From positions 1 through 50,194 of the forward strand of contig CAILCX010000054.1 of NCBI GenBank assembly GCA_903832775.1: a stretch of DNA of 50,194 bases, in the 5' to 3' direction. Source of the DNA: an uncultured Methylobacter sp. Lineage in GTDB: Bacteria > Pseudomonadota > Gammaproteobacteria > Methylococcales > Methylomonadaceae. Positions 1 to 15,782 of this stretch are shown piece after piece. The position numbers were made by a program, and so were the translations under genes. The notes beneath the pieces are model-generated. The model saw only the letters and a list, made by a program, of their open reading frames with translations, searched no databases and was not told the DNA's origin. How positions within the stretch are numbered: position 1 is the first letter of the stretch; each line of letters begins with the position of its first letter.

Positions 1-200
1 GATGATTCCACAAGGCTGTAATAAAGGTTGATCATCTATTGGCTGACCGGATACGACCCATTGCAGACAGCCCCCCCCCAACTTACGGATGCCTGCTGTC
101 TTACCTATAGCCGCCATTCAATTACAATTATCCAAGAATTTACTAAAAAATACCCCCCGTACTGTAGTTTGCAGTTTAGCCACGTAGACGGAATATCATT
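1..200. other. Intergenic, no gene recognised
   Basis: No convincing coding sequence is seen here. The stretch has a run of nine C at 71-79 and a second C run near 155. A 77-codon open frame crosses it but has no family resemblance and runs into the decayed antitoxin, so it is not called. This DNA may be degraded accessory sequence. Confidence 0.4.
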
Positions 201-484
201 ATGCCTATCACTCACCCTCTTAAGATTGCCAAGATACGCTCTTGAATTGATCCTGATTTAAAAGAAAATGCCACACGGATATTAGCTGCTTGCGGTCTAA
301 ATGTATCTGATGCTATCTGCTTATTCTTGAATCAGGTGGTCACTCACAATGGCTTACCTTTTGAAATTAAAGCACCAAATCCAGTGCCTGTTCAGCAATG
401 GAAGAAGCCGATTCCGGTAAATTGCCGATATTCGCAACTATACAAGATTTGTTTGATGACCTCGAAAAAGACAGTGCAGAGTAA
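201..484 (+). pseudogene. dinJ: Decayed RelB/DinJ-family antitoxin
   Basis: The conceptual product is a RelB/DinJ ribbon-helix-helix antitoxin, the DNA-binding partner that neutralises a YafQ-type mRNA interferase. It starts at ATG 201 and contains the family core IDPDLKENATRILAACGL followed by NVSDAICLFLNQVV and GLPFEIKAPN. The frame is broken twice. An in-frame TGA lies at 243-245, where the family usually has arginine. A frameshift lies between about 380 and 395, after which the C-terminal part AMEEADSGKLPIFATIQDLF continues in another frame to TAA 482-484. The yafQ remnant follows directly, as in intact dinJ-yafQ operons. The two lesions make it very unlikely that a working antitoxin is produced. 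Confidence 0.8.
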
Positions 485-785
485 ACCGCACTTATCCCCC
501 TCGTGAATTTACGCGAACGAAAGAGCTTCACAAGGACTGGCAAAGCTTGGCTCACAGTGGACGTTACGATCTGAATAGCTTAAAAGAGGCTATGCTCCGC
601 TTATTGATAATATTGCACCTTTACCAGCAGAATGGCTCGATCATTCATTAACTGGAAAATGGGCAAATCATCGAGAATTCCATATTGGTGGAGACCTCCT
701 TTTAATCTATAAGATTGAAGATAGCAGCAAAGATGAACAGGGTATATTCGTTAGAACTGGAACCCACACCGAATTATTCGAATAA
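485..785 (+). pseudogene. yafQ: Decayed YafQ-family mRNA interferase toxin
   Basis: This is the remnant of a RelE/YafQ-type toxin, a ribosome-dependent endoribonuclease. The first part reads REFTRTKELHKDWQSLAHSG and LNSLKEAMLR. A one-base loss near 598-602 shifts the frame, and the second part reads APLPAEWLDHSLTGKWANHR, EFHIGGDLLLIYKIED and FVRTGTHTELFE before TAA 783-785. The histidines and the C-terminal GTHxxLF motif of YafQ are still visible, with a longer loop before the last strand. No ATG start remains at the junction with the antitoxin. Toxin and antitoxin are both broken, which fits loss of the toxin after or together with loss of its antidote. Confidence 0.8.
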
Positions 786-836
786 TAAATATCTAAGGTT
801 CATTCCTACATATACAAATCAAGTGTCAAAGTTTTA

Positions 837-1355
837 TTAAGAGGGAAATTTCAAATTGGAATAAAAATATTTTTCATATACTTTGAAACTCTCGAAATCA
901 CCATACCCCCAATGAAAAGTATCTATTTGCTCATCAATTAAATTCTCAATTGAAACAAAAATCCATTTATTAGCATTATCAAGCATCCATAAATCATCCA
1001 TTATCCAAGGAAAAGTTATGTGCGTTGTAATTCCTTCAATGTTTGTTAATAATATTTGTGCGACAGAATTAAAATGAACTTCTTCAAGCTCTTCTCCTGA
1101 CTTAACTATAATAAGAGGCGGAGACACTGGTTCAGAAGTTACCCCCATAATAGGTGTAATTTTTTTCATTTTAAACTTATCGAGCCAGGATAAGTCAACA
1201 TTCACAATTATTATATTTGTTTTGTTTTCAATGTCTGAAATAATCCCAGCAGAAATAGACTTAGATGCCTGTAACGATCTACTTTCTAGGCAAATATATA
1301 AACTTGGGTTGTATTTTAAAAATGCAGTCAACCAACCAATATCAGGATGATTCAT
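837..1355 (-). CDS. Hypothetical protein, second gene of an overlapping pair
   Basis: The 172-residue product is soluble, with no signal peptide or membrane segment. I recognise no family. It is rich in Ile, Asn, Asp and Trp, and has an aromatic C-terminal part (FHWGYGDFESFKVYEKYF). The ATG at 1355 overlaps the TGA stop of the upstream gene in an ATGA junction, so the two are probably co-translated. The base composition is AT-rich like the rest of the accessory block and unlike the core genes after 6 kb. An immunity-type or cargo protein of the mobile element is possible, but nothing in the sequence proves it. Confidence 0.6.
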   Translation of the reverse strand: MNHPDIGWLTAFLKYNPSLYICLESRSLQASKSISAGIISDIENKTNIIIVNVDLSWLDKFKMKKITPIMGVTSEPVSPPLIIVKSGEELEEVHFNSVAQILLTNIEGITTHITFPWIMDDLWMLDNANKWIFVSIENLIDEQIDTFHWGYGDFESFKVYEKYFYSNLKFPS

Positions 1356-1774
1356 AAATTTTCCTCAAACTTTGGTAGAAAACGTGTTATCAAACCTCTT
1401 AAAGGATCAAAAATAGTGCAACCCTCCCAAACATGAATTATATTATTGTCATCAATGTTTTTTAAAAATACTTCTTGACCAATACCTGGATCAGGAGGTT
1501 GTTTTTCTAAGTTAATTCCAATAGCTCGCAATATCCATTCTTGGTAAGTTTCATTTTCTTGCATATCGCTGACATTTCCAGCATCAATGCTAAAGTAATC
1601 TGCTAAAAATTCAATTGAAGAATCAGGATTGCCACCAAAACAGAGACTTTCCCCATAAATGTATTTTGCTGCTTCAATTAATGCATTTTCATAATCCTCA
1701 ATTATTCCAGTATCCCACAAAATGGAACCCAGGTTAGCAGAAGGTGCTTCAGCTGCTATAACGCGATAACTCAT
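1352..1774 (-). CDS. Hypothetical protein, first gene of an overlapping pair
   Basis: I chose ATG 1774 (product begins MSYRVIAAEAPSANLG, 140 residues) because a GGAAG lies about nine bases upstream. The longer reading would start with TTG at 1846. The product is acidic and soluble, with no recognised domain; it includes FGGNPDSSIEFLADYFSID and a PPDPGIGQEVFLKNIDDNN segment. Its stop overlaps the start of the next gene by the ATGA junction at 1352-1355. The pair looks like a two-gene accessory unit. Function is unknown. Confidence 0.55.
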   Translation of the reverse strand: MSYRVIAAEAPSANLGSILWDTGIIEDYENALIEAAKYIYGESLCFGGNPDSSIEFLADYFSIDAGNVSDMQENETYQEWILRAIGINLEKQPPDPGIGQEVFLKNIDDNNIIHVWEGCTIFDPLRGLITRFLPKFEENL

Positions 1775-2273
1775 AATTAATAACTTCCGTAATATAGAAA
1801 TAAAGGAATCTAATGTTATTGGTTTTTTTATAAAATTTAGATACAAACGACCTAAAAAACTTTATCTTACATGGCATAATATTATTTAGAGAGTAGCAAG
1901 CGTGTCGCTATTATTAATACAATATTTTTTAGTTCCGTACCAAAAATTTATAGCTAATTTAATAGCTACATTTTTTACTGCGTGAAAATCATGCATTTAA
2001 AACGCCACTAACGATTAGACAACTAACGACTCCTATAGGTAAGTTGCTTCCCCTAATTACAGCGGGTGCAATGTGTAAAAAATGTTACATTATTTAAGCT
2101 TTGTTTTACCATAAGTCCATATTCTCAAAATAACAATATTCATTATGGAATGCTACCATATTAGTAGTATGATAATATTTCTACGTTTGATATGGTCAAA
2201 ATCCAGACTTTTAGATACTTATATTTTCCTGTAGGATTGATGTAATACAAAATATTTCGATTGGGAATTAAAT
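1775..2273. other. Intergenic gap, AT-rich, no gene seen
   Basis: About 500 bases lie between the divergent genes at 1774 (minus) and 2274 (plus). I see no open frame with family resemblance and no RNA gene. Short inverted repeats such as TATGG/CCATA near 2144-2160 are present but weak. It probably holds the two divergent promoters. Confidence 0.4.
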
Positions 2274-2696
2274 ATGCCATACCAATTGCGCAGATTTGAA
2301 TGCAATAACCTTAGTGGTATTCCGTCTTTTGATGAAATTGCTCGTTTTCCTGATCTTAACTCAGCAGTGATGATGGCAAAAGTTTTATTTCAAGTGGAAT
2401 ACGGCAGCAATAAATTTGCTCCGCTGTATTTTCATGAATCACTTGCTTCTTTTTTTAATATCACCATCCCAAAAGAATTTCAAAAAAACAATGGCTTCCC
2501 TATTTCATGGATTACAACCAGTGACGATATTAATGAGTTACTAGATGATTGGTGGGAATCAGAAGAACAATTCATAATGTACCCATACTGGGAAATAGTA
2601 AGTGATAATGAAGTTTCTGCTATTCTAGCGCCTTATTATTGCTATATTGATAATCGCATTTTTCTCGACATGTTTCTCGACATGTACATTACCTAG
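2274..2696 (+). CDS. Hypothetical protein
   Basis: The 140-residue product begins MPYQLRRFECNNLSG at ATG 2274. It is soluble, acidic and aromatic (DDWWESEEQF, MYPYWEIV), with no signal peptide and no family I recognise. The last codons contain an exact 12-base tandem duplication (2661-2684) that gives the repeated residues FLDM-FLDM just before the stop, so the C-terminus may be recently altered. It stands alone on the plus strand among minus-strand accessory genes. An immunity-like or orphan cargo protein is possible but unproven. Confidence 0.5.
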   Translation: MPYQLRRFECNNLSGIPSFDEIARFPDLNSAVMMAKVLFQVEYGSNKFAPLYFHESLASFFNITIPKEFQKNNGFPISWITTSDDINELLDDWWESEEQFIMYPYWEIVSDNEVSAILAPYYCYIDNRIFLDMFLDMYIT

Positions 2697-2814
2697 AGGC
2701 TATGTAAACTATACCCTTTGCTTTTTTTTAACATCATTAACCTTTAACGTTGTTAAAAATCAGAGTCTCGCTCATCAGCATGCATTGCTCGCAGTCTCCA
2801 TCCTATGCCTGGAA

Positions 2815-3183
2815 TTAAATCAACAAAGTAATAGGATGCCCCCCTAGCACAACAAATGTAAATATAGCAGAAACCCATGCTATCCATGCTTTTTTTGTAC
2901 GCTCATTTATAAATTCCCATGCCCATATTGATAGGGCAATTACTCCTAATGGAACCCCAAAGCGCAATATATTAGCAATAACATTCTCAAAAAAATCTGC
3001 AATGGGTCTGGGTTTCCCCCAAGCAACAATAACCCCCTCATATATCAAAGTAACAGAAATTAAACTTGCTATTGGGTGATTGCATAAAAATGATTTCATA
3101 TCTTCAACTTTATTACGGATATTTATATGGGTGTCTAGTAATTTAGCAACGACTCTACCTTGCTCTCCAGTTCCTTCGGCCAT
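2815..3183 (-). CDS. Small multi-spanning membrane protein, unknown function
   Basis: The 122-residue product has three likely membrane segments, at about 38-57, 70-91 and 100-120. A polar N-terminal part contains LLDTHINIRNKVEDMKSF. I recognise no family. It starts at ATG 3183, inside the 3' end of the upstream gene, with a 49-base overlap in another frame. That suggests translational coupling of the two membrane proteins. It lies downstream of the recombinase on the same strand and is probably cargo of the element. Confidence 0.5.
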   Translation of the reverse strand: MAEGTGEQGRVVAKLLDTHINIRNKVEDMKSFLCNHPIASLISVTLIYEGVIVAWGKPRPIADFFENVIANILRFGVPLGVIALSIWAWEFINERTKKAWIAWVSAIFTFVVLGGHPITLLI

Positions 3184-3713
3184 TGGTCTTGTGGCACGTC
3201 CAGAATTAATCCCACTTCCTCGTCCGTCAGTTCCTTTTCCAGTTCGTCCCGCGTAAATTTTGCCACTAAGGCCGCTGCTATCAGCCTGCCCTGAAGCGTG
3301 GGTTGGGTTGTGGATTCCGAGTTGCTCATAGTTGTTGTATCAACTATCAAATTATCAAACTTTCCTGTTTTTATCCATTTTAATAGCCGCGCGGTTGTCC
3401 ATTCATGAATCCAAGCAAGCCATATACCTATCGGAAATATAATTAACCCATACCAGGCTATTTTTAAATGAAAATTATAGTTCCTATGAAAATCGCTAAA
3501 TAGATTGCCAAAGAACCTACTGAAACTACGTGGGTAGTCAATAGCTATGTCATATATAAGGCCAATAGTAAACATAGTAAAACCAGTACATATAATAACT
3601 AGCCCAACTCTTTGCGCTGGAGTTACTATAACCTTAATGGCTTTATTATAAAATTTCATTACAGTAGCACCAGTACAAGCACTTATATCCTCTTCGTATA
3701 TAAATTTATTCAT
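3135..3713 (-). CDS. Membrane protein with acidic C-terminal domain, unknown function
   Basis: I start it at ATG 3713 (MNKFIYEEDISACTG, 192 residues); a longer frame would need TTG at 3824. Two membrane segments are likely, at about residues 36-57 and 85-103. A soluble tail follows, with a short helical acidic stretch (FTRDELEKELTDEEVGLILD). I recognise no family. Its 3' end overlaps the next membrane-protein gene by 49 bases. Both lie behind the large serine recombinase on the same strand, so they are likely accessory genes carried by the same element. Confidence 0.5.
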   Translation of the reverse strand: MNKFIYEEDISACTGATVMKFYNKAIKVIVTPAQRVGLVIICTGFTMFTIGLIYDIAIDYPRSFSRFFGNLFSDFHRNYNFHLKIAWYGLIIFPIGIWLAWIHEWTTARLLKWIKTGKFDNLIVDTTTMSNSESTTQPTLQGRLIAAALVAKFTRDELEKELTDEEVGLILDVPQDQWPKELESKVESLLNY

Positions 3714-4062
3714 CGTTACGTTCCAACCAAAAAGAGAAGTATGACTCAAAATCCGAAAGACATCATGGGATTTCATAAGCAATAGGTAAGAAATCTCGAA
3801 TAAATAACTTACTAATGCGACCAATTAGTTGAGCGACAGCAATAGCTCATATTGCCGACGTTGGTTGAGAGTAACCGACTGTCTACAGTTGGCCGTTACC
3901 TGCCTTTCAAACAGGATCATCCATCAAGTCACCCTCCGGTTCTATCCACAATAACGACCTACCGTCTTTAAAACGAATAACCAATTTAGGTGTATGGTAG
4001 TAAATGACAAGTTTTTATTTTCAGGTGAAGAACAATCTTATCGACTAACCGCCTAACAACTA
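3714..4062. other. Intergenic gap downstream of the recombinase
   Basis: No convincing gene is seen. On the minus strand near 3915-4010 a short open stretch reads KLVIRFKDGRSLLWIEPEGD and ends soon after at a TGA. It has no start codon, so it is at most a gene fragment. The remainder resembles degraded intergenic DNA. Confidence 0.35.
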
Positions 4063-5850
4063 CTAGATTCTTTTGAAAACCTTGAATGCCAAACTCTCAA
4101 ACAGGGTTGGCACATCCCATTCGGAGGGTGGTGCGGTTTTTTGATCTAATATTTTGCCCGATGATAGAACTGTCCTATGCTCCCCGTTCTTGAACACCAT
4201 CATAAAGAGCCTATTCTTTTTGTTGGGTTTAATGTCCAACTTGGAACACATATCAACTATCTGATCCTTTTCATACTCATCGGATGAAATCAAATCAAGC
4301 ATGTATTCCTCGACCTCATCATCTGAATACCACCGCCCCCCTACAAACGTTCGGATTTGAGCAACTACCCGTTTGATGGCTTCTGATAAACGAATTCGAA
4401 GTAGTTGCAGATCGTTTTCTTCTAGGTTATCCAACCTCCCAAGAAGATCTACAATTAAGTTTTGTTGAGCGGTGGCGTTAACACGATAATTAGTTAACCG
4501 TGTCACATCGTCTTTTTTTTGTTTTTTCTCCACCTCCAGTTTTTGGAGTTTGTCATTATTATCCTCAATTCTACCTATAATCATTTGAACCGCTGACCCG
4601 TCAGCAGCAGTTTCAAGGGCGTTAAGCAGCGTTTTATTGCGACTATCAATATCTAGCTTTTGTTGCTTGATGGATTCAAGGAGTAAATTCGTTTTATTTA
4701 ATTCATCTTCAAAGTCTTGCCTTACATCAAGTACCCTAGCTAAATCAATATCCTTGCAAAAACTCAGGACCATTCGCTCAAAGTCGGTGTATTCCCATTG
4801 AATGTACTTGCATCCAAGACCTCTTCTGGCATTACTGCAAGCTATATATTTTGATTTTTTATGTTTTCCCTTTTGGTTTTGAACATGCCCGCCCATATTC
4901 ATCGGACCGCCGCAATAACCACACTTTAATAGACCTGAAAAAAGATTACTAAGAGCCTGACCCTTTCTAACTCCCCCTCTATGTCGTCTTTCCGCACGAG
5001 CTGAGGCCACAAGAAACGACTCTTCCTTAGTCATAATCTCTGGATAGTAATTTGGAATGACCTCATAAAGTGACTCTTCACCATCACGCTGTAGTTTCAG
5101 ATGTATATCGCCATATATAGCAGGATTCTGTAGAGTTTTTTGAATGTATGAGTTCTGCCAGCCATTAGCTGTACTAGAAAAAAGTGGTACGCCCTCTGTA
5201 TTAAAAGTCTTTACAATTGTGGCAATACCGATGCCTTCAAGTGACATTTTGAAGATACGCTTTACGACTTCCACTCGTTCTGGAATAAACTCGAAACCTG
5301 TATCCCCATCACTTGGTTTTAACCAATAGGGGCAACGCTTTGTTAGACGCTTGTTATTGAGATTAAGCCTTTTTGCATCCCAGGCTGACCTTAGGCGATG
5401 GCTTTTCATTGCTGATTCTTCATTAGCCCGACTCATTATGGCTATCGAAACAATCAGGCTCGCCCAGTTATCATTTGCTTTCTTGTAGCTATAAACTTGG
5501 TTGTCAGAAAGTGTTACTATCACAATTCCATATCTCAGGATGCTTGTGAAAATCGTCAATGCATCTAACACCTTATCTCGGGACAATCGATCAAGGCTTT
5601 CAACTAAAAGATAAGAACCGACTTCGATTTGTTTTTCTTCTACGAGACGAAGAAAATGCCCTAAAGCTCCTTTTTCAAGATTTGATCTGTCGTAGGCTGA
5701 TATGCCTAGATCCCGAAGATTCAAATCCGTATCCAATTCCAATCCATTCTTTGCTGCATAATTCTCAGACAATTTGACTTGTCGATCAAGGGAGTCACCT
5801 GCTAGTTGTTTAGCACTAGAAAACCGAATGTATGAATAAGCCTTGGGCAT
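4063..5850 (-). CDS. Large serine recombinase / site-specific integrase
   Basis: The 595-residue product is a large serine recombinase, the type that integrates and excises phages and mobile elements at specific att sites. The resolvase domain (about 1-140) has the catalytic serine in RFSS (S11) and the ESLDRLSRD motif (84-92). A recombinase domain follows (about 165-285). A zinc ribbon has cysteines 310, 313, 338 and 347. A coiled coil spans about 375-470, as in phiC31/A118-type enzymes, and a C-terminal tail ends the protein. ATG 5850 is preceded by a strong GAGGAG. The gene starts about 60 bases from the point where comEC is cut, which is where such enzymes usually sit relative to their own attachment site. 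All key residues look intact, so the enzyme may be active. Confidence 0.92.
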   Translation of the reverse strand: MPKAYSYIRFSSAKQLAGDSLDRQVKLSENYAAKNGLELDTDLNLRDLGISAYDRSNLEKGALGHFLRLVEEKQIEVGSYLLVESLDRLSRDKVLDALTIFTSILRYGIVIVTLSDNQVYSYKKANDNWASLIVSIAIMSRANEESAMKSHRLRSAWDAKRLNLNNKRLTKRCPYWLKPSDGDTGFEFIPERVEVVKRIFKMSLEGIGIATIVKTFNTEGVPLFSSTANGWQNSYIQKTLQNPAIYGDIHLKLQRDGEESLYEVIPNYYPEIMTKEESFLVASARAERRHRGGVRKGQALSNLFSGLLKCGYCGGPMNMGGHVQNQKGKHKKSKYIACSNARRGLGCKYIQWEYTDFERMVLSFCKDIDLARVLDVRQDFEDELNKTNLLLESIKQQKLDIDSRNKTLLNALETAADGSAVQMIIGRIEDNNDKLQKLEVEKKQKKDDVTRLTNYRVNATAQQNLIVDLLGRLDNLEENDLQLLRIRLSEAIKRVVAQIRTFVGGRWYSDDEVEEYMLDLISSDEYEKDQIVDMCSKLDIKPNKKNRLFMMVFKNGEHRTVLSSGKILDQKTAPPSEWDVPTLFESLAFKVFKRI

Positions 5851-5884
5851 AGAATCTCCTCGAAAAAAAAACTATCAAATTGGA

Positions 5885-5919
5885 TTATATGTTATTACGT
5901 TTTAATAGATAACACATTA
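5885..5919. other. Candidate attachment-site end of integrated element
   Basis: Between the recombinase start and the last comEC-like codons lies an imperfect inverted repeat. TGTTAT at 5890-5895 and ATAACA at 5909-5914 match perfectly around a 13-base spacer, and the pairing extends to 9 of 11 bases. ComEC similarity ends just beyond it, near 5911-5920. The position and symmetry fit a hybrid attL/attR site for the adjacent serine integrase. The crossover dinucleotide cannot be fixed from one end alone. Confidence 0.45.
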
Positions 5920-6721
5920 CTACAAGATGAATAGTCCCGGTTTTACGAAAAACATCCCATTGCCCTTGTTTTATACCAGTGCCATCACCTATAGTCAGTG
6001 CTTTTATTAAAGCAAGACTCGGACTGTTAGCCAAATTGGTTGACAGCTCATCAATAATAGCCTGCCGCCAGACAGCAATACTGTTCCAGACTGAATCACA
6101 GCCTAATAAAACGGGCTTTGGATTTGGACGTATATAGCCCGTAGCGCCAATACCTTCAGTGAAAAGAAAACGCTCATAATCAAAGCCACCGAGATTCATC
6201 GTGCCATGAACGCGCTTTAATTTAACGGTAAAAGTCCACTTTTGACCTGCTTTGATGGGTTGATCAGGGTAATACCAACTTAATTTTAATTTAGCCGGCA
6301 GCTGTTGTTTTACATTCGTAACAGGAATCTCAACACCTGTTCCTGACAGACTTGTGGCATTCACCTCATCCGTGGGGATCGCCACGCTAACTCCAGAAAG
6401 CCTTGGGGCATAAATCTTATCCATAGGAATAAAATCAAAGCGCACACGCCTGTCATCAACTTCCGGCAAGTCAGCAATAGTGCCGGCAATTTGAATTTCT
6501 TTACCCTCCAGTGATTCCGGCAAACGATCGGACAACCGATGCATTGCAAACACTATCGCCCATATTGAGCCGACCAGAAAAAATAGACACCGCCAATAAC
6601 GCAACCATGCCATAATGCCCGCCACTAAAGCAATGACAATCAGCCATTTAATGACTGGCAATACCGACATTTGTTGCACAACTAATATTCCGGCTAGAAA
6701 TGACAGAGCAGAAACAACCAT
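5885..6721 (-). pseudogene. comEC: comEC/rec2 5' fragment, cut by an integrated element
   Basis: ComEC is the inner-membrane channel that brings transforming DNA into the cell. The open frame (ATG 6721) is 278 residues, against roughly 750 for the family. It has three N-terminal membrane segments (about 2-62), the DUF4131-type soluble domain with NLGGFDYERFLFTEGIGATG, and the start of the competence domain (SLALIKALTIGDGTG, FRKTGTIHLVV). Family members continue after HLVV with a serine/glycine-rich channel segment (typically ISGxHIG). Here the frame instead reads MCYLLKRNNI and stops. The large serine recombinase gene begins directly beyond. No 3' part of comEC is seen between position 1 and this point, so it lies past the window or is lost. 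Confidence 0.85.
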
Positions 6722-10036: not shown

Positions 10037-10591
10037 ATGAGAAAGCCGCTTTTCGCTTTAAACTTAAATAACCACTTCACCAGCGGTATCCTTGCAATCT
10101 TTGTAAGTCTGTCACTAGCCTCCTGCACAACAATTCTAACCAACTTGCCCGGCGTCTACACCGCTGATGTCCAGCAGGGTAATATGGTTGACCAGACCAT
10201 GATTGATCAGCTCAGACCGAGTATGAACAAACGGCAGGTGCTCTATATATTGGGCTCACCCATGCTGGTTGATTTTTTCCACCAGAAGCGCTGGGATTAT
10301 CTCTATTCTGCGCAAATTGATGGCGGCGACCGACAACAAAAAAGAATTTCATTATTCTTCGAAAATGATCAACTGGTTGGAATTCAAGGTGATTTCAAAC
10401 CTGGCGCAGTACCTGTTATCAAACCCTCCGAAGAAACCACGGTAGATGTTCCCAAAAGAGACCTTGAAAAAAGTCTTTGGGAAATGATTACCGGCTTATT
10501 TGGTTTCGATGGTATTGAAAACTCGCCAAAATCAAATAAATCAGATACTAAACCAGCACCCGGTTCAGTCGCTGACCAGTTACCTCTCTAA
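10037..10591 (+). CDS. bamE: Outer membrane assembly lipoprotein BamE (SmpA/OmlA)
   Basis: BamE is a lipoprotein subunit of the BAM complex that folds beta-barrel proteins into the outer membrane. The signal peptide ends in a lipobox LASC with the acylated cysteine at residue 30. The SmpA/OmlA domain follows, with [30 protein letters not shown] and RWDYLYSAQ. The C-terminal 50 residues are an extra polar tail, making this 184-residue version longer than the roughly 113-residue E. coli protein. It is divergent from fur. Confidence 0.92.
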
Positions 10592-10823
10592 TATTCAACA
10601 TGTTTTACAATACTGCCAATATGGCAATTTGTGTAACTGATTTCTGGATGCATTGAAAATACATATCTTATTGAAACGGTATTTATGGGTTTGTACAAAC
10701 TTACCTGATTTAATACTCATTGCTATAAAACCAGATTAAGTTACTGACTTAAAAATATAACGTTTTATTACTTCGACACCCTTTTACTTAAAAACCTAAA
10801 TTTTAAAAACTGGAGAGCTATTT

Positions 10824-11579
10824 ATGTCCGCACTTGAAATTATCACAATCCTGATTATTCTGGGTATAGCAATACAAATCTTTTTAAACTCAAGAAAAAA
10901 CTCAGAACAAGAATCGTCAAAGTACGTTAAACCCGAAGAAAAAGCAGAACAAACCACACAGCCAACTCAATCAGAAGTCATTGAACTTGTCGAAAATCCA
11001 CAAATCCCAGTAATTGACACCACAACTATTCCTGAACCTCAACCTACTGCGCATTCAAACCCAGACCTCCTTAGAATTTCTGCAACAGAAAACCATACTC
11101 ATCTTCCTCAGGACTCAATTCTGAAACGGCATTACCTGACCCATTTGTTCAGCATGATTGAATCACTTGCTCCCGAAAAACCAACGGACTCAGTGCTTAG
11201 CCGTCATTATGATGCAATGCTGGCTGCCAAACTGGCAGAATGCTCTATTGATCAAAATACCACAGAACAACTGCATCATGATTATGAAAAATGTAAAATA
11301 TTAGCTAATGGAGAGACTTCGTTAATTAAGCCACAAGAACAATTGATTGAAGTTTCTTGTACAAAAGACAACGTCAATCCACTTCCTCAGGATTCAATAC
11401 TGAAAAGACATTATCTCACCCATGTTACCAGCATGATTGAAGCTCTTGCTTCTCCACGTCCAACAGATTCTGTTTTATGCCGCCATCACGATGCTCTAAT
11501 TGCCGATAAGCTTGCGGAGTGCCTAAATAACCAGGCATCAATGCGGCAACTAGTTTGCGATTATGAAAGTCAAAAATAA
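10824..11579 (+). CDS. Membrane-anchored protein with internal tandem repeats, unknown function
   Basis: The 251-residue product has one N-terminal membrane segment (about 3-21) and a Glu/Gln/Thr-rich linker to about 90. Two copies of a 64-residue unit follow, at 94-157 and 187-250. Each unit has two half-copies of a DS[IV]LxRH[YH] motif, so the motif occurs four times, at about 97, 122, 190 and 215; each is followed by a predicted helix ending in MIExLA or KLAEC. I recognise no named family. A GGAGAG precedes the ATG. The gene stands alone between bamE and a hairpin near the end of kup. Cytoplasmic repeats tethered to the inner membrane are the simplest reading, but topology is not certain. 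Confidence 0.75.
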   Translation: MSALEIITILIILGIAIQIFLNSRKNSEQESSKYVKPEEKAEQTTQPTQSEVIELVENPQIPVIDTTTIPEPQPTAHSNPDLLRISATENHTHLPQDSILKRHYLTHLFSMIESLAPEKPTDSVLSRHYDAMLAAKLAECSIDQNTTEQLHHDYEKCKILANGETSLIKPQEQLIEVSCTKDNVNPLPQDSILKRHYLTHVTSMIEALASPRPTDSVLCRHHDALIADKLAECLNNQASMRQLVCDYESQK

Positions 11580-11599
11580 CAACTTTCACTAGAAGAACA

Positions 11600-11642
11600 C
11601 AGGCAACACGATAAACTATGACGCTACAGCGCGTGTTGCCTG
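11600..11642. repeat. Perfect 11-base inverted repeat in convergent gap
   Basis: CAGGCAACACG (11600-11610) and CGTGTTGCCTG (11632-11642) are perfect arms around a 21-base loop. The hairpin follows the stop of the repeat protein. It has no U tract, so it may be a weak terminator or the core of a dispersed palindromic repeat. Confidence 0.6.
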
Positions 11643-11725
11643 CATCGCACCAAAGTCCTCTCACTACCAAATAGTTTCGGCTCTAAAAATATACCCCTGC
11701 AGTCTTCTTCCAACAACTAACAGAA

Positions 11726-11753
11726 TATTTGTTATGAAAAATCATAACAAATA
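11726..11753 (-). terminator. Hairpin downstream of kup
   Basis: TATTTGTTATGA (11726-11737) and TCATAACAAATA (11742-11753) pair perfectly over 12 bases with a 4-base loop. It lies 20 bases past the kup stop. The stem is AT-rich and the U tract is weak, so termination may be partial. Confidence 0.55.
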
Positions 11754-11773
11754 ACCTTTCCTGTAAAAGTAAC

Positions 11774-13660
11774 CTAAAGTTCGATACGTATACCCAGCTC
11801 AATAACCCGCTCGACGGGAATTTTAAAAAACTCTATCGCACTTGAGGCGTTGTGAAATAAAAATCTGAACAACGGACGTCGCCATTTTGCCATCGGGCTT
11901 TTCTTCCTAAAAAAGAGTTTTTCACTACCGATAAAAAACGATGTCTTTTTAAAATCAATACTTAACCCTTCCTTAACGCACTGTTCTAAGGCTTGCCTCA
12001 CATCAGGACTTTGCTGAAAACCATAATAAAGTTTTACTCGAAAGAAATTGTGATTCTCACCAAAAGCACGAATTTTAATCCGGTGTGCCACATCAACGTA
12101 TGGTTCATCTTTAGTAACAATAGTTAGAACAATAATTTGTTCATGCAACACATGGTTATGCTCAAAATTATGTAAAAAGACCTGCGGCACACCATGCAAA
12201 CTCTTAGCCAGATAAACGGCAGATCCTTTAGCAGTAACCGCCTCATGGCTAATTATTTTATCCTCCAGATCTTCAAATAACATCCGCCGCTCATCCATGT
12301 GTTCCGCTAACATGGCGCGCCCCTTAATCCAGGTGGTCATCAATAAGAACAGCACAGATCCTATAACTAAAGGCAACCAACCGCCCGTCGGTATTTTTAG
12401 ACTGTTAGAGGAAAGAAACAAGAAATCTACCGTTAAAAAAATCGTCAAAAAAGTAAAACTGGCCAAAGCTTTCCATTGCCAAAGCTTTTGAATAACAATA
12501 AATACCAAAACAGTATCAACGATCATAGTGCCGGTAACCGCAATTCCGTAAGCAGAAGCAAGTGCGGATGAAGATTTAAAAGTCAACACCACTACAAAAA
12601 CACAAACCATTAAAATCCAATTTATCGCTGGAATATAAACTTGCCCTACTTCTCGACCTGAAGTGTGGAGAATATTCATACGAGGACAATAGCCCAACTG
12701 TATAGCTTGTCTGGTTACTGAAAATGCACCTGATATTACGGCTTGCGAGGCAATCACGGAGGCCAGTGTAGCCAAAAGCAGTAAGGGATACATAGCCCAG
12801 GTCGGCGCAAGCAAATAAAACGGATTTTTCACCGCTTCAGGATGTTCAAGAAGTAACGCTCCCTGACCAAAATAGTTAAGCAATAAAGCAGGAAAAACGA
12901 AACTGAACCACGCGTAACGGATAGGTTTTAGGCCAAAATGCCCCATGTCGGCATAAAGCGCTTCAGCACCGGTTATTGCCAAGACTACCGCACCCATTAT
13001 CAAAAACGATTCCCAGCCCAATTCCAACAGCAAATGAATCGCGTAATACGGATTAACCGCTGCCAATACGCCGGGAGCATTAATAATATTATTTACACCA
13101 AGACCGCCCAAGGTAACAAACCAAAGACACATAATCGGCGAAAACATTTTTCCAACAGTGCCTGTACCTTTAGCTTGGACTAAAAATAAAGCGACCAGTA
13201 CCGCAATTGCAATCGGTAATATATAACGGCTTAATGCGGGTGAAATTATTTGCAAACCTTCGACCGCACTTAAAACCGAGATTGCGGGGGTAATAATGCC
13301 GTCGCCGTAAAACAAGGCAGCACCGAGCAAACCAATAGTAATAATAAAGTTGGTTTTTTTGGGATTACCGGTAGCACTTTGTAGAGCAAAGGTCATAAGC
13401 GCCATGATTCCGCCCTCACCTTTATTATTAACCCGCATAATAAAAGTCGCGTATTTTATTGCTACCACCAAGGTTAGCGCCCAAAAAATAAGAGACAGTA
13501 CGCCTAACACATGAAGCTTATCAATTGGTAAATGGCTACCGAAAATTTCCTTAACCGCATATAAAGGACTGGTGCCAATATCTCCAAATACCACACCGAT
13601 TGCACTCAGTGCTAAAACGGTTACCTGTTGCTTGGAATGGCCCTGTGAACTTGTCGACAT
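11774..13660 (-). CDS. kup: Low-affinity potassium transporter Kup
   Basis: Kup (TrkD) is an inner-membrane K+ uptake system driven by proton symport. The 628-residue protein starts with the family motif AIGVVFGDIGTSPLYAVKEI and GEGGIMALMTFAL. It has about twelve membrane segments up to roughly residue 450, including FYGDGIITPAISVLSAVEGL, then a soluble C-terminal domain of about 170 residues. Its length is typical. The next gene upstream on the same strand, nhaD, is 177 bases away and has its own terminator, so kup is probably expressed alone. Confidence 0.95.
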   Translation of the reverse strand: MSTSSQGHSKQQVTVLALSAIGVVFGDIGTSPLYAVKEIFGSHLPIDKLHVLGVLSLIFWALTLVVAIKYATFIMRVNNKGEGGIMALMTFALQSATGNPKKTNFIITIGLLGAALFYGDGIITPAISVLSAVEGLQIISPALSRYILPIAIAVLVALFLVQAKGTGTVGKMFSPIMCLWFVTLGGLGVNNIINAPGVLAAVNPYYAIHLLLELGWESFLIMGAVVLAITGAEALYADMGHFGLKPIRYAWFSFVFPALLLNYFGQGALLLEHPEAVKNPFYLLAPTWAMYPLLLLATLASVIASQAVISGAFSVTRQAIQLGYCPRMNILHTSGREVGQVYIPAINWILMVCVFVVVLTFKSSSALASAYGIAVTGTMIVDTVLVFIVIQKLWQWKALASFTFLTIFLTVDFLFLSSNSLKIPTGGWLPLVIGSVLFLLMTTWIKGRAMLAEHMDERRMLFEDLEDKIISHEAVTAKGSAVYLAKSLHGVPQVFLHNFEHNHVLHEQIIVLTIVTKDEPYVDVAHRIKIRAFGENHNFFRVKLYYGFQQSPDVRQALEQCVKEGLSIDFKKTSFFIGSEKLFFRKKSPMAKWRRPLFRFLFHNASSAIEFFKIPVERVIELGIRIEL

Positions 13661-15481: not shown

Positions 15482-15782
15482 GAAAATCCGCTATATAAAA
15501 AGTTAACTTAACAGTATGTTAATGTGCAATCACACTATTGGCAATCACTGTGAACCTTGAAGCCTTGATTTCGTTGACCACAGGACGGAAAATATCCAAC
15601 TTATCTGAAGTTCATATTTTCGGAAAAAATATTCGCCTATTTTATACTGCCCAATGAATAACACATGGCGAACATAGTTTTGCCATATACACTGCTAAAA
15701 GCCAATTGATATTAAATGAAAAGAAAATCGATAAGATCAAAAAAAATACTGTCAAATCAATGCTGACAACATTTTTATAACA
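15482..15782. other. Intergenic gap upstream of nhaD
   Basis: These 301 bases separate the GST gene stop from the nhaD start, both on the minus strand. I see no gene or clear hairpin terminator. The gap presumably contains the nhaD promoter. Confidence 0.4.

Follow-up and report, generated by a model that had tools for sequence, protein, structure and literature searches.

A predicted serine recombinase element within comEC of an uncultured Methylobacter sp. and related elements inserted at the same codon

The stretch of DNA analysed here (the window, 50,194 nucleotides) is the entire contig C54 of the genome of an uncultured Methylobacter sp., which comprises 215 contigs and 3.86 Mb. It contains the 5' part of comEC, the gene of the DNA-uptake channel, and next to it a gene for a predicted large serine recombinase. 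The following features were distinguished:

1–5918, no strand: left portion of the integrated element, whose remaining part (approx. 14.1 kb) is placed on contig C74 by a join based on an overlap
837–1355 (minus), 1352–1846 (minus), 2274–2696 (plus), 2815–3183 (minus) and 3135–3824 (minus): five element open reading frames (ORFs), function unassigned, no match
4063–5850, minus strand: predicted large serine recombinase (integrase), 595 aa (PF00239, PF07508, PF13408; phrog_95; phylogenetic tree)
5885–6721, minus strand: comEC 5' part, a truncated frame of 278 aa (PF13567)
5885–5918, minus strand: element-derived tail of this frame, ten unrelated residues and a stop (translation compared with uninterrupted relatives)
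5895–5912, no strand: predicted attP arm of 18 bp, TTACGTTTTAATAGATAA, the perfect inverted partner of C74 14165–14182
5919–5920, no strand: predicted attL crossover dinucleotide, AC on the plus strand and GT in the comEC sense, with equal arm spacing at both ends
5919–6721, minus strand: native comEC part including the GT core, homologous residues 1–268 (PF13567, relatives, junction)

The domain order of the 595-aa protein, i.e. Resolvase (PF00239) followed by Recombinase (PF07508) and zinc ribbon (PF13408), all above the Pfam cut-off, together with an inverted-repeat attP with a 2-bp core (see below), identifies it as a predicted large serine recombinase; in the PHROGs scan it matched the integrase family phrog_95. 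Measured to the first base of its gene (5850), the distance is 34 bases from the comEC stop and 68 from the crossover dinucleotide, the gene lying past both. The 22 further genomes of the genus contain no relative of this recombinase at E ≤ 1e-30, and among 311 genomes of the order one was found, besides the window's own, at 1e-40. The relatives found in phage (17) and plasmid (18) records at E ≤ 1e-20 were all less than 60% identical, and scans of viral contigs, performed with the recombinase and also with a two-sequence alignment, revealed no relative.

The truncated comEC frame contains the ComEC N-terminal domain (PF13567, E 1.2e-27). An earlier note made from the sequence of the window had recognized the ComEC family as far as FRKTGTIHLVV and had placed the rest of the gene outside the first 5.9 kb, and both observations were correct: homology stops at residue 268, alignments to genus relatives end at residue 269–270, and the last ten residues are unrelated. 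The 3' part expected beyond the HLVV codons is present on contig C74, where a family search gave the only match in the genome to the ComEC channel domain (PF03772; 14189–14908), and on this ground a second intact comEC was rejected. This part is an open frame (V-ISGSHIG...) that begins at the missing residue and ends with a stop at 15754. When the two comEC flanks are brought together at the GT, the frame is open throughout, encoding 788 aa without stops.

Both contigs also share an end. Positions 1–59 of the window equal positions 74–132 of C74 in reverse complement, and the orientation of this 59-bp overlap is that expected if C54 and C74 flank one insertion. C74 begins with 73 bases that have no match in the window, so that the direct join, and with it the 20-kb size, is inferred; joined at the overlap, the contigs would give an element of approx. 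19,976 bp. These 73 bases form part of an 86-base repeat that is 99% identical on contig C6. They conflict with the continuation of the window past the overlap and may represent an assembly branch or a population variant.

The insertion sites of the element could be read at both junctions. The 18-bp inverted repeat is exact at window 5895–5912 and C74 14165–14182, and the C74 arm stands six bases before the core of the comEC 3' part. The dinucleotide at C74 14189–14190 (attR) is the same GT as in attL. The predicted attP consists of 18-bp inverted arms, a 14-bp spacer and a central GT. A search for inverted repeats inside each junction alone gave nothing, which was to be expected with one arm on C54 and the other on C74. 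The core corresponds to the first two bases of the codon preceding Ile-Ser-Gly, which is Val GTG here, and Ser AGT, AGC or TCG in the related elements described below.

Uninterrupted versions of the gene are common in the genus. The comEC 5' part was found in 22 of 23 genomes (own included), being absent in G018, whose genome is 70% complete, and in all 21 relatives with comEC the sequence runs uninterrupted through the insertion site. All of these have a codon beginning with GT at the core (GTG in 17, GTA in 2 and GTC in 2), and 19 of the 21 have open comEC frames of 753–814 aa, comparable to the 788 aa joined here. The remaining two are G011, in which the end of the contig follows about 41 residues past the site, and G012, with a frame break further on. 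None of these 21 relatives combines the same short comEC with absence of the element, and the other flank of the insertion carries the comEC 3' part with the second att half. The proposal of the earlier note, that a serine recombinase element splits comEC and that this gene is its attB, was in this way borne out, the second half lying on another contig. An element residing in a transformation gene whose homologues are uninterrupted in relatives points to a putative competence-gene-disrupting element, with which transformation would be lost.

With a genome in 215 contigs, and with the first 73 bases of C74 unmatched in the window, the two comEC pieces might be suspected to be unrelated contig ends placed together by an assembly artefact or by chance. 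We regard this as extremely improbable: the 18-bp inverted repeat is exact at both junctions, the GT core is common to them, the 59-bp overlap is correctly oriented, and three other genomes (G313, G314 and G834) show the same split with the two comEC parts on a single contig. Chance was rejected, the arms and core being exact.

The part of the element located on C74 contains the following features (C74 coordinates):

102–1025: DNA/RNA non-specific endonuclease
1862–4053: predicted type II restriction-modification pair (restriction enzyme and C5 methyltransferase)
4885–6033: tyrosine integrase
10450–13482: primase/helicase-like protein, 1010 aa
14189–14190: predicted attR crossover dinucleotide GT

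Further proteins encoded there contain DUF4240, DUF6876, DUF5131 and NADAR domains. The restriction enzyme of the pair had no Pfam match, and the five window ORFs (837–3824) matched neither Pfam nor PHROGs at E ≤ 0.01. Promoter scanning gave 3 sites compared with 2.9 in shuffles, while terminator-like sites numbered 6 compared with 1.0. In the PHROGs scan of 17 element proteins no structural or lysis family was matched, and the identification of the element as a phage was rejected on the lack of a structural family among these proteins, the inferred join leaving room for a missing piece.

To find related elements, a collection of genomes of 84,980 species was scanned with the two-sequence recombinase alignment, which gave 15 loci: five in which comEC adjoins the recombinase, L135 as a second copy, seven with comM and two with neither. 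Searches of 399 genomes from the order of Dechloromonas hankyongensis and 395 from its family brought in nine more genomes, of which two have comEC and five comM, while two have neither gene in the visible flank. All eight sampled members of the comEC clade, i.e. the Methylobacter element and seven others, are inserted at the codon before ISG[L/S]H. In six of the seven other genomes (G311, G313, G314, G315, G596 and G834) the match of the comEC 3' half begins at query residue 2, and in the seventh (G312) this half was not found; G313, G314 and G834 show the identical split within one contig. Wherever both ends can be read, which is the case in six elements, the attL and attR cores agree (GT in the Methylobacter element, TC in G311, AG in G313, G314, G596 and G834), the dinucleotide being located ten bases inside the 10-bp arm core; G315 (attR TC) and G312 (attL AG) have one readable end each.

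Several of these loci have peculiarities of their own. L134 and L135 (JAQTWB010000006.1) are two equally oriented copies of a comEC element on a single contig; over the 9.15 kb compared their identity is 99.4%, and both attP-like sites are located in the stretch preceding the second copy. In D. hankyongensis (G313) the comEC 3' part is in two pieces (query residues 2–193 and 222–519) about 20 kb apart (L156–L158 on its contig C8, about 1065.5–1085.8 kb), so a second insertion of some kind is likely. In the Gallionella element (G315, L160:7264–9060) the recombinase adjoins the comEC 3' half, whereas the others have it beside the 5' half, which indicates that either the element or its core is inverted. 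Products of the G314 element (L154:12324–15023) include a DNA polymerase of family B (DNA_pol_B_2), a type ISP restriction enzyme and a CHAT-domain protein, and the G313 element encodes an 896-aa protein similar-looking to a protein of the G314 element.

Twelve looser relatives of the recombinase reside in comM, five of them (L182, L183, L185, L189 and L190) seen at one junction only; both targets are therefore transformation genes. comM was in two separate pieces in each of the six comM-locus genomes tested and gave a single match in three others tested alongside, and the split in Methylococcaceae bacterium UBA6146 was read directly. Before the tree and counts were made, L135 (the copy of L134), L141 (the same as L041) and L181 and L187 (repeats of L136 and L133) were dropped. 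The resulting tree has 32 rows, of which the eight from comEC elements make up a single group (support 99/96); the comEC label requires one change, a number as low as this occurring in none of 500 shuffles. For the twelve comM rows seven changes are needed. Well-supported branches force three of these, so that comM targeting is not the property of one clade in this tree. On this sequence evidence comEC is the predicted attB of a recombinase clade.

Nucleases are a recurrent component of these elements. The endonuclease of the Methylobacter element has a hydrophobic N-terminus, by which it looks secreted when judged by eye, and a DRGH motif, which we take to be catalytic. Endonuclease_NS-type genes with DRGH are also present in the comM elements of UBA6146 (73% identical to it) and G562, and in the comEC element of G315, in all three cases directly after the recombinase gene; the G562 gene was found with the endonuclease profile only, being outside the Pfam scan. 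The G314 element encodes an SNase-domain protein. Altogether, a nuclease with a hydrophobic N-terminus was found on the Methylobacter element and four related ones. Nucleases occur on 5 of 20 comEC/comM element sequences and on none of 7 others, an excess that is suggestive only, with coverage unequal and many sequences of only 4–5 kb; in this count of 27 the pieces of the Methylobacter element were taken as one, as were the G312 copies, and the second insertion in G313 was left out. The profile was built from three of the four endonuclease hits and the SNase query from the fifth nuclease, so that members of other nuclease families would be missed.

The endonuclease had no match in phage records at E ≤ 1e-20. 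Its nearest plasmid homologues are encoded by one Methylobacter and one Methylomonas plasmid (71–74% identity; less than 60% in the other 25 plasmid records), and two predicted viral contigs carry homologues 66% and 71% identical (L178, L179, L053 and L054 for the plasmids and viral contigs together). A second endonuclease fragment, 59% identical over 97 aligned residues, resides in the same Methylobacter genome (L045:3584–3796, contig C63).

The split, the two att halves, their shared core, the open empty-site frame and the fact that seven related elements occupy the identical codon are all read from nucleotide sequence. We consider it probable that the locus represents an integrative element of approx. 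20 kb, inserted into comEC by its recombinase, which blocks DNA uptake and thereby protects itself from deletion by transformation. The recombinase would have joined the attP of the element to the attB inside comEC, at the Val codon before ISGSH. The split would remove the ComEC channel, leaving the cell unable to import DNA, including the element-free DNA whose uptake could lead to loss of the element by transformation. The seemingly secreted nuclease might add a second barrier. The reuse of one comEC codon, or of comM, suggests a parasite that protects itself by shutting down the DNA uptake of its host.

The conserved comEC motif could also be a stable landing site, loss of transformation being an unselected side effect. 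Serine recombinases often use conserved gene motifs, ISG[L/S]H occurs in the clade genomes read as well as in the 21 genus relatives, and several members of the sample have neither gene in the visible flank, namely the seven tree rows labelled "other" for this reason (L144, L147, L171, L172, L173, L184 and L186), and the plasmid rows L170 and L174. Against such neutrality, 20 of 27 site-labelled rows (20 of 29 with the two plasmid rows) are in comEC or comM, which is no unbiased rate because the sequences were collected for their resemblance to the recombinase of the window; some elements also carry the nuclease that looks secreted, and published sets of target genes are enriched for competence genes (PMC10083194). 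On balance we judge a neutral landing site unlikely.

The insertion might also act as a reversible switch. Phage A118 of Listeria, a complete phage with regulated excision, encodes a serine integrase and has its att site in the competence gene comK. By analogy, regulated excision would restore comEC when competence is needed. The recombinase frame is open, the predicted att sites are precise and self-consistent, and with an open empty-site frame excision would restore comEC; excision, and hence a switch, is possible in principle for this element. The differences from A118 are that another gene is occupied and that virion and lysis genes are lacking among the 17 proteins scanned, none of which belongs to a phage structural family. 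Moreover, in G313, where the comEC 3' part is in two pieces, excision of the element alone would not restore the gene. A reversible switch seems to us quite improbable, and lasting inactivation that blocks curing by transformation fits the observations better.

A further feature of the comEC clade concerns the attP-like sites themselves. Scanning for paired sites (arm, 22 bases, arm, in a 10-22-10 pattern that was fitted on the first examples, so that the count is not blind) gave 6 in 282,467 bases compared with 0.05 expected in shuffles. In five of the eight comEC elements there is a second attP-like site, and its central AG or TC represents the other serine-codon class for the target position: in G313, G314 and G596 AG is used and TC is spare, in G311 TC is used and AG is spare, and in G312 AG is used, the junction before the second copy having both a TC and an AG site. 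No spare site was detected in the Methylobacter element (70 kb of the window and C74 scanned), in G315 (27 kb) or in G834 (9 kb). We tentatively propose, as a possibility somewhat short of an even chance, a clade of comEC-dedicated elements in which paired AG and TC attP sites would match AGY and TCN serine codons and so hedge integration, insertion would disable DNA uptake, and on some elements a secreted nuclease would act as a second lock. If so, one element could integrate whichever serine codon its host uses at the conserved ComEC position, and where this residue is valine (always GT..), as in the genus of the window, a single GT site would suffice. The spare sites may instead bind the recombinase for regulation or have other roles. 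Twin attP sites or alternative cores in natural elements did not appear in the literature among the matches listed.

Insertion of serine recombinase elements into comEC is already known: in streptococci this gene is the integration site of Φ1207.3 and Φ10394.4, which enter it at a GA dinucleotide (PMC4260502). Pneumococci with Tn1207.1 in comEC (celB) are unable to import DNA, and in a pneumococcal clade with this insertion no sequence exchange was detected (PMC8321556). The Methylobacter element is like all three in having a serine recombinase, a position inside the comEC coding sequence and a dinucleotide core. It differs from Φ1207.3 and Φ10394.4, which are prophages of 52–59 kb with a GA core and two serine recombinase genes at the right end, in having one 595-aa recombinase, a GT core and no phage structural family found; its host, unlike streptococci, is from the family of Methylococcaceae bacterium UBA6146. 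In Piscirickettsia salmonis, also Gram-negative, comEC is broken by mobile DNA, described as various transposable elements and not as one site-specific recombinase as here (PMC12955456).

Other competence genes are likewise occupied. The comM gene of Acinetobacter is split by AbaR and by further elements (PMC11472951), and elements in comM, comK, comYC and comFA disable transformation according to Croucher et al. 2016, who proposed a model of conflict with an anti-curing logic and with secreted DNases as a second tactic; comEC is named only as the DNA pore in the accessible portion of that work (PMC4774983). Durrant et al. 2022 found DNA competence genes to be enriched among targets of large serine recombinases, 12.4% of predicted site-specific integrases targeting magnesium chelatase homologues (PMC10083194). 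comM is a magnesium chelatase gene; comEC is not named in the available text, and the present recombinases may already stand in the tables of that study. Neither comEC-targeting elements nor transformation assays in Methylococcales were encountered in the literature among the matches listed. Since elements splitting competence genes are known (e.g. Φ1207.3 in comEC, AbaR in comM, and the targets of Durrant et al. 2022), the present one is a variant. With it, a recombinase lineage of Gram-negative bacteria joins these systems, in which a single comEC codon is reused across genera, and this reuse fits the idea that mobile elements resist erasure by transformation. The paired att sites of its relatives, moreover, predict how an integrase may tolerate synonymous codon change in its target.
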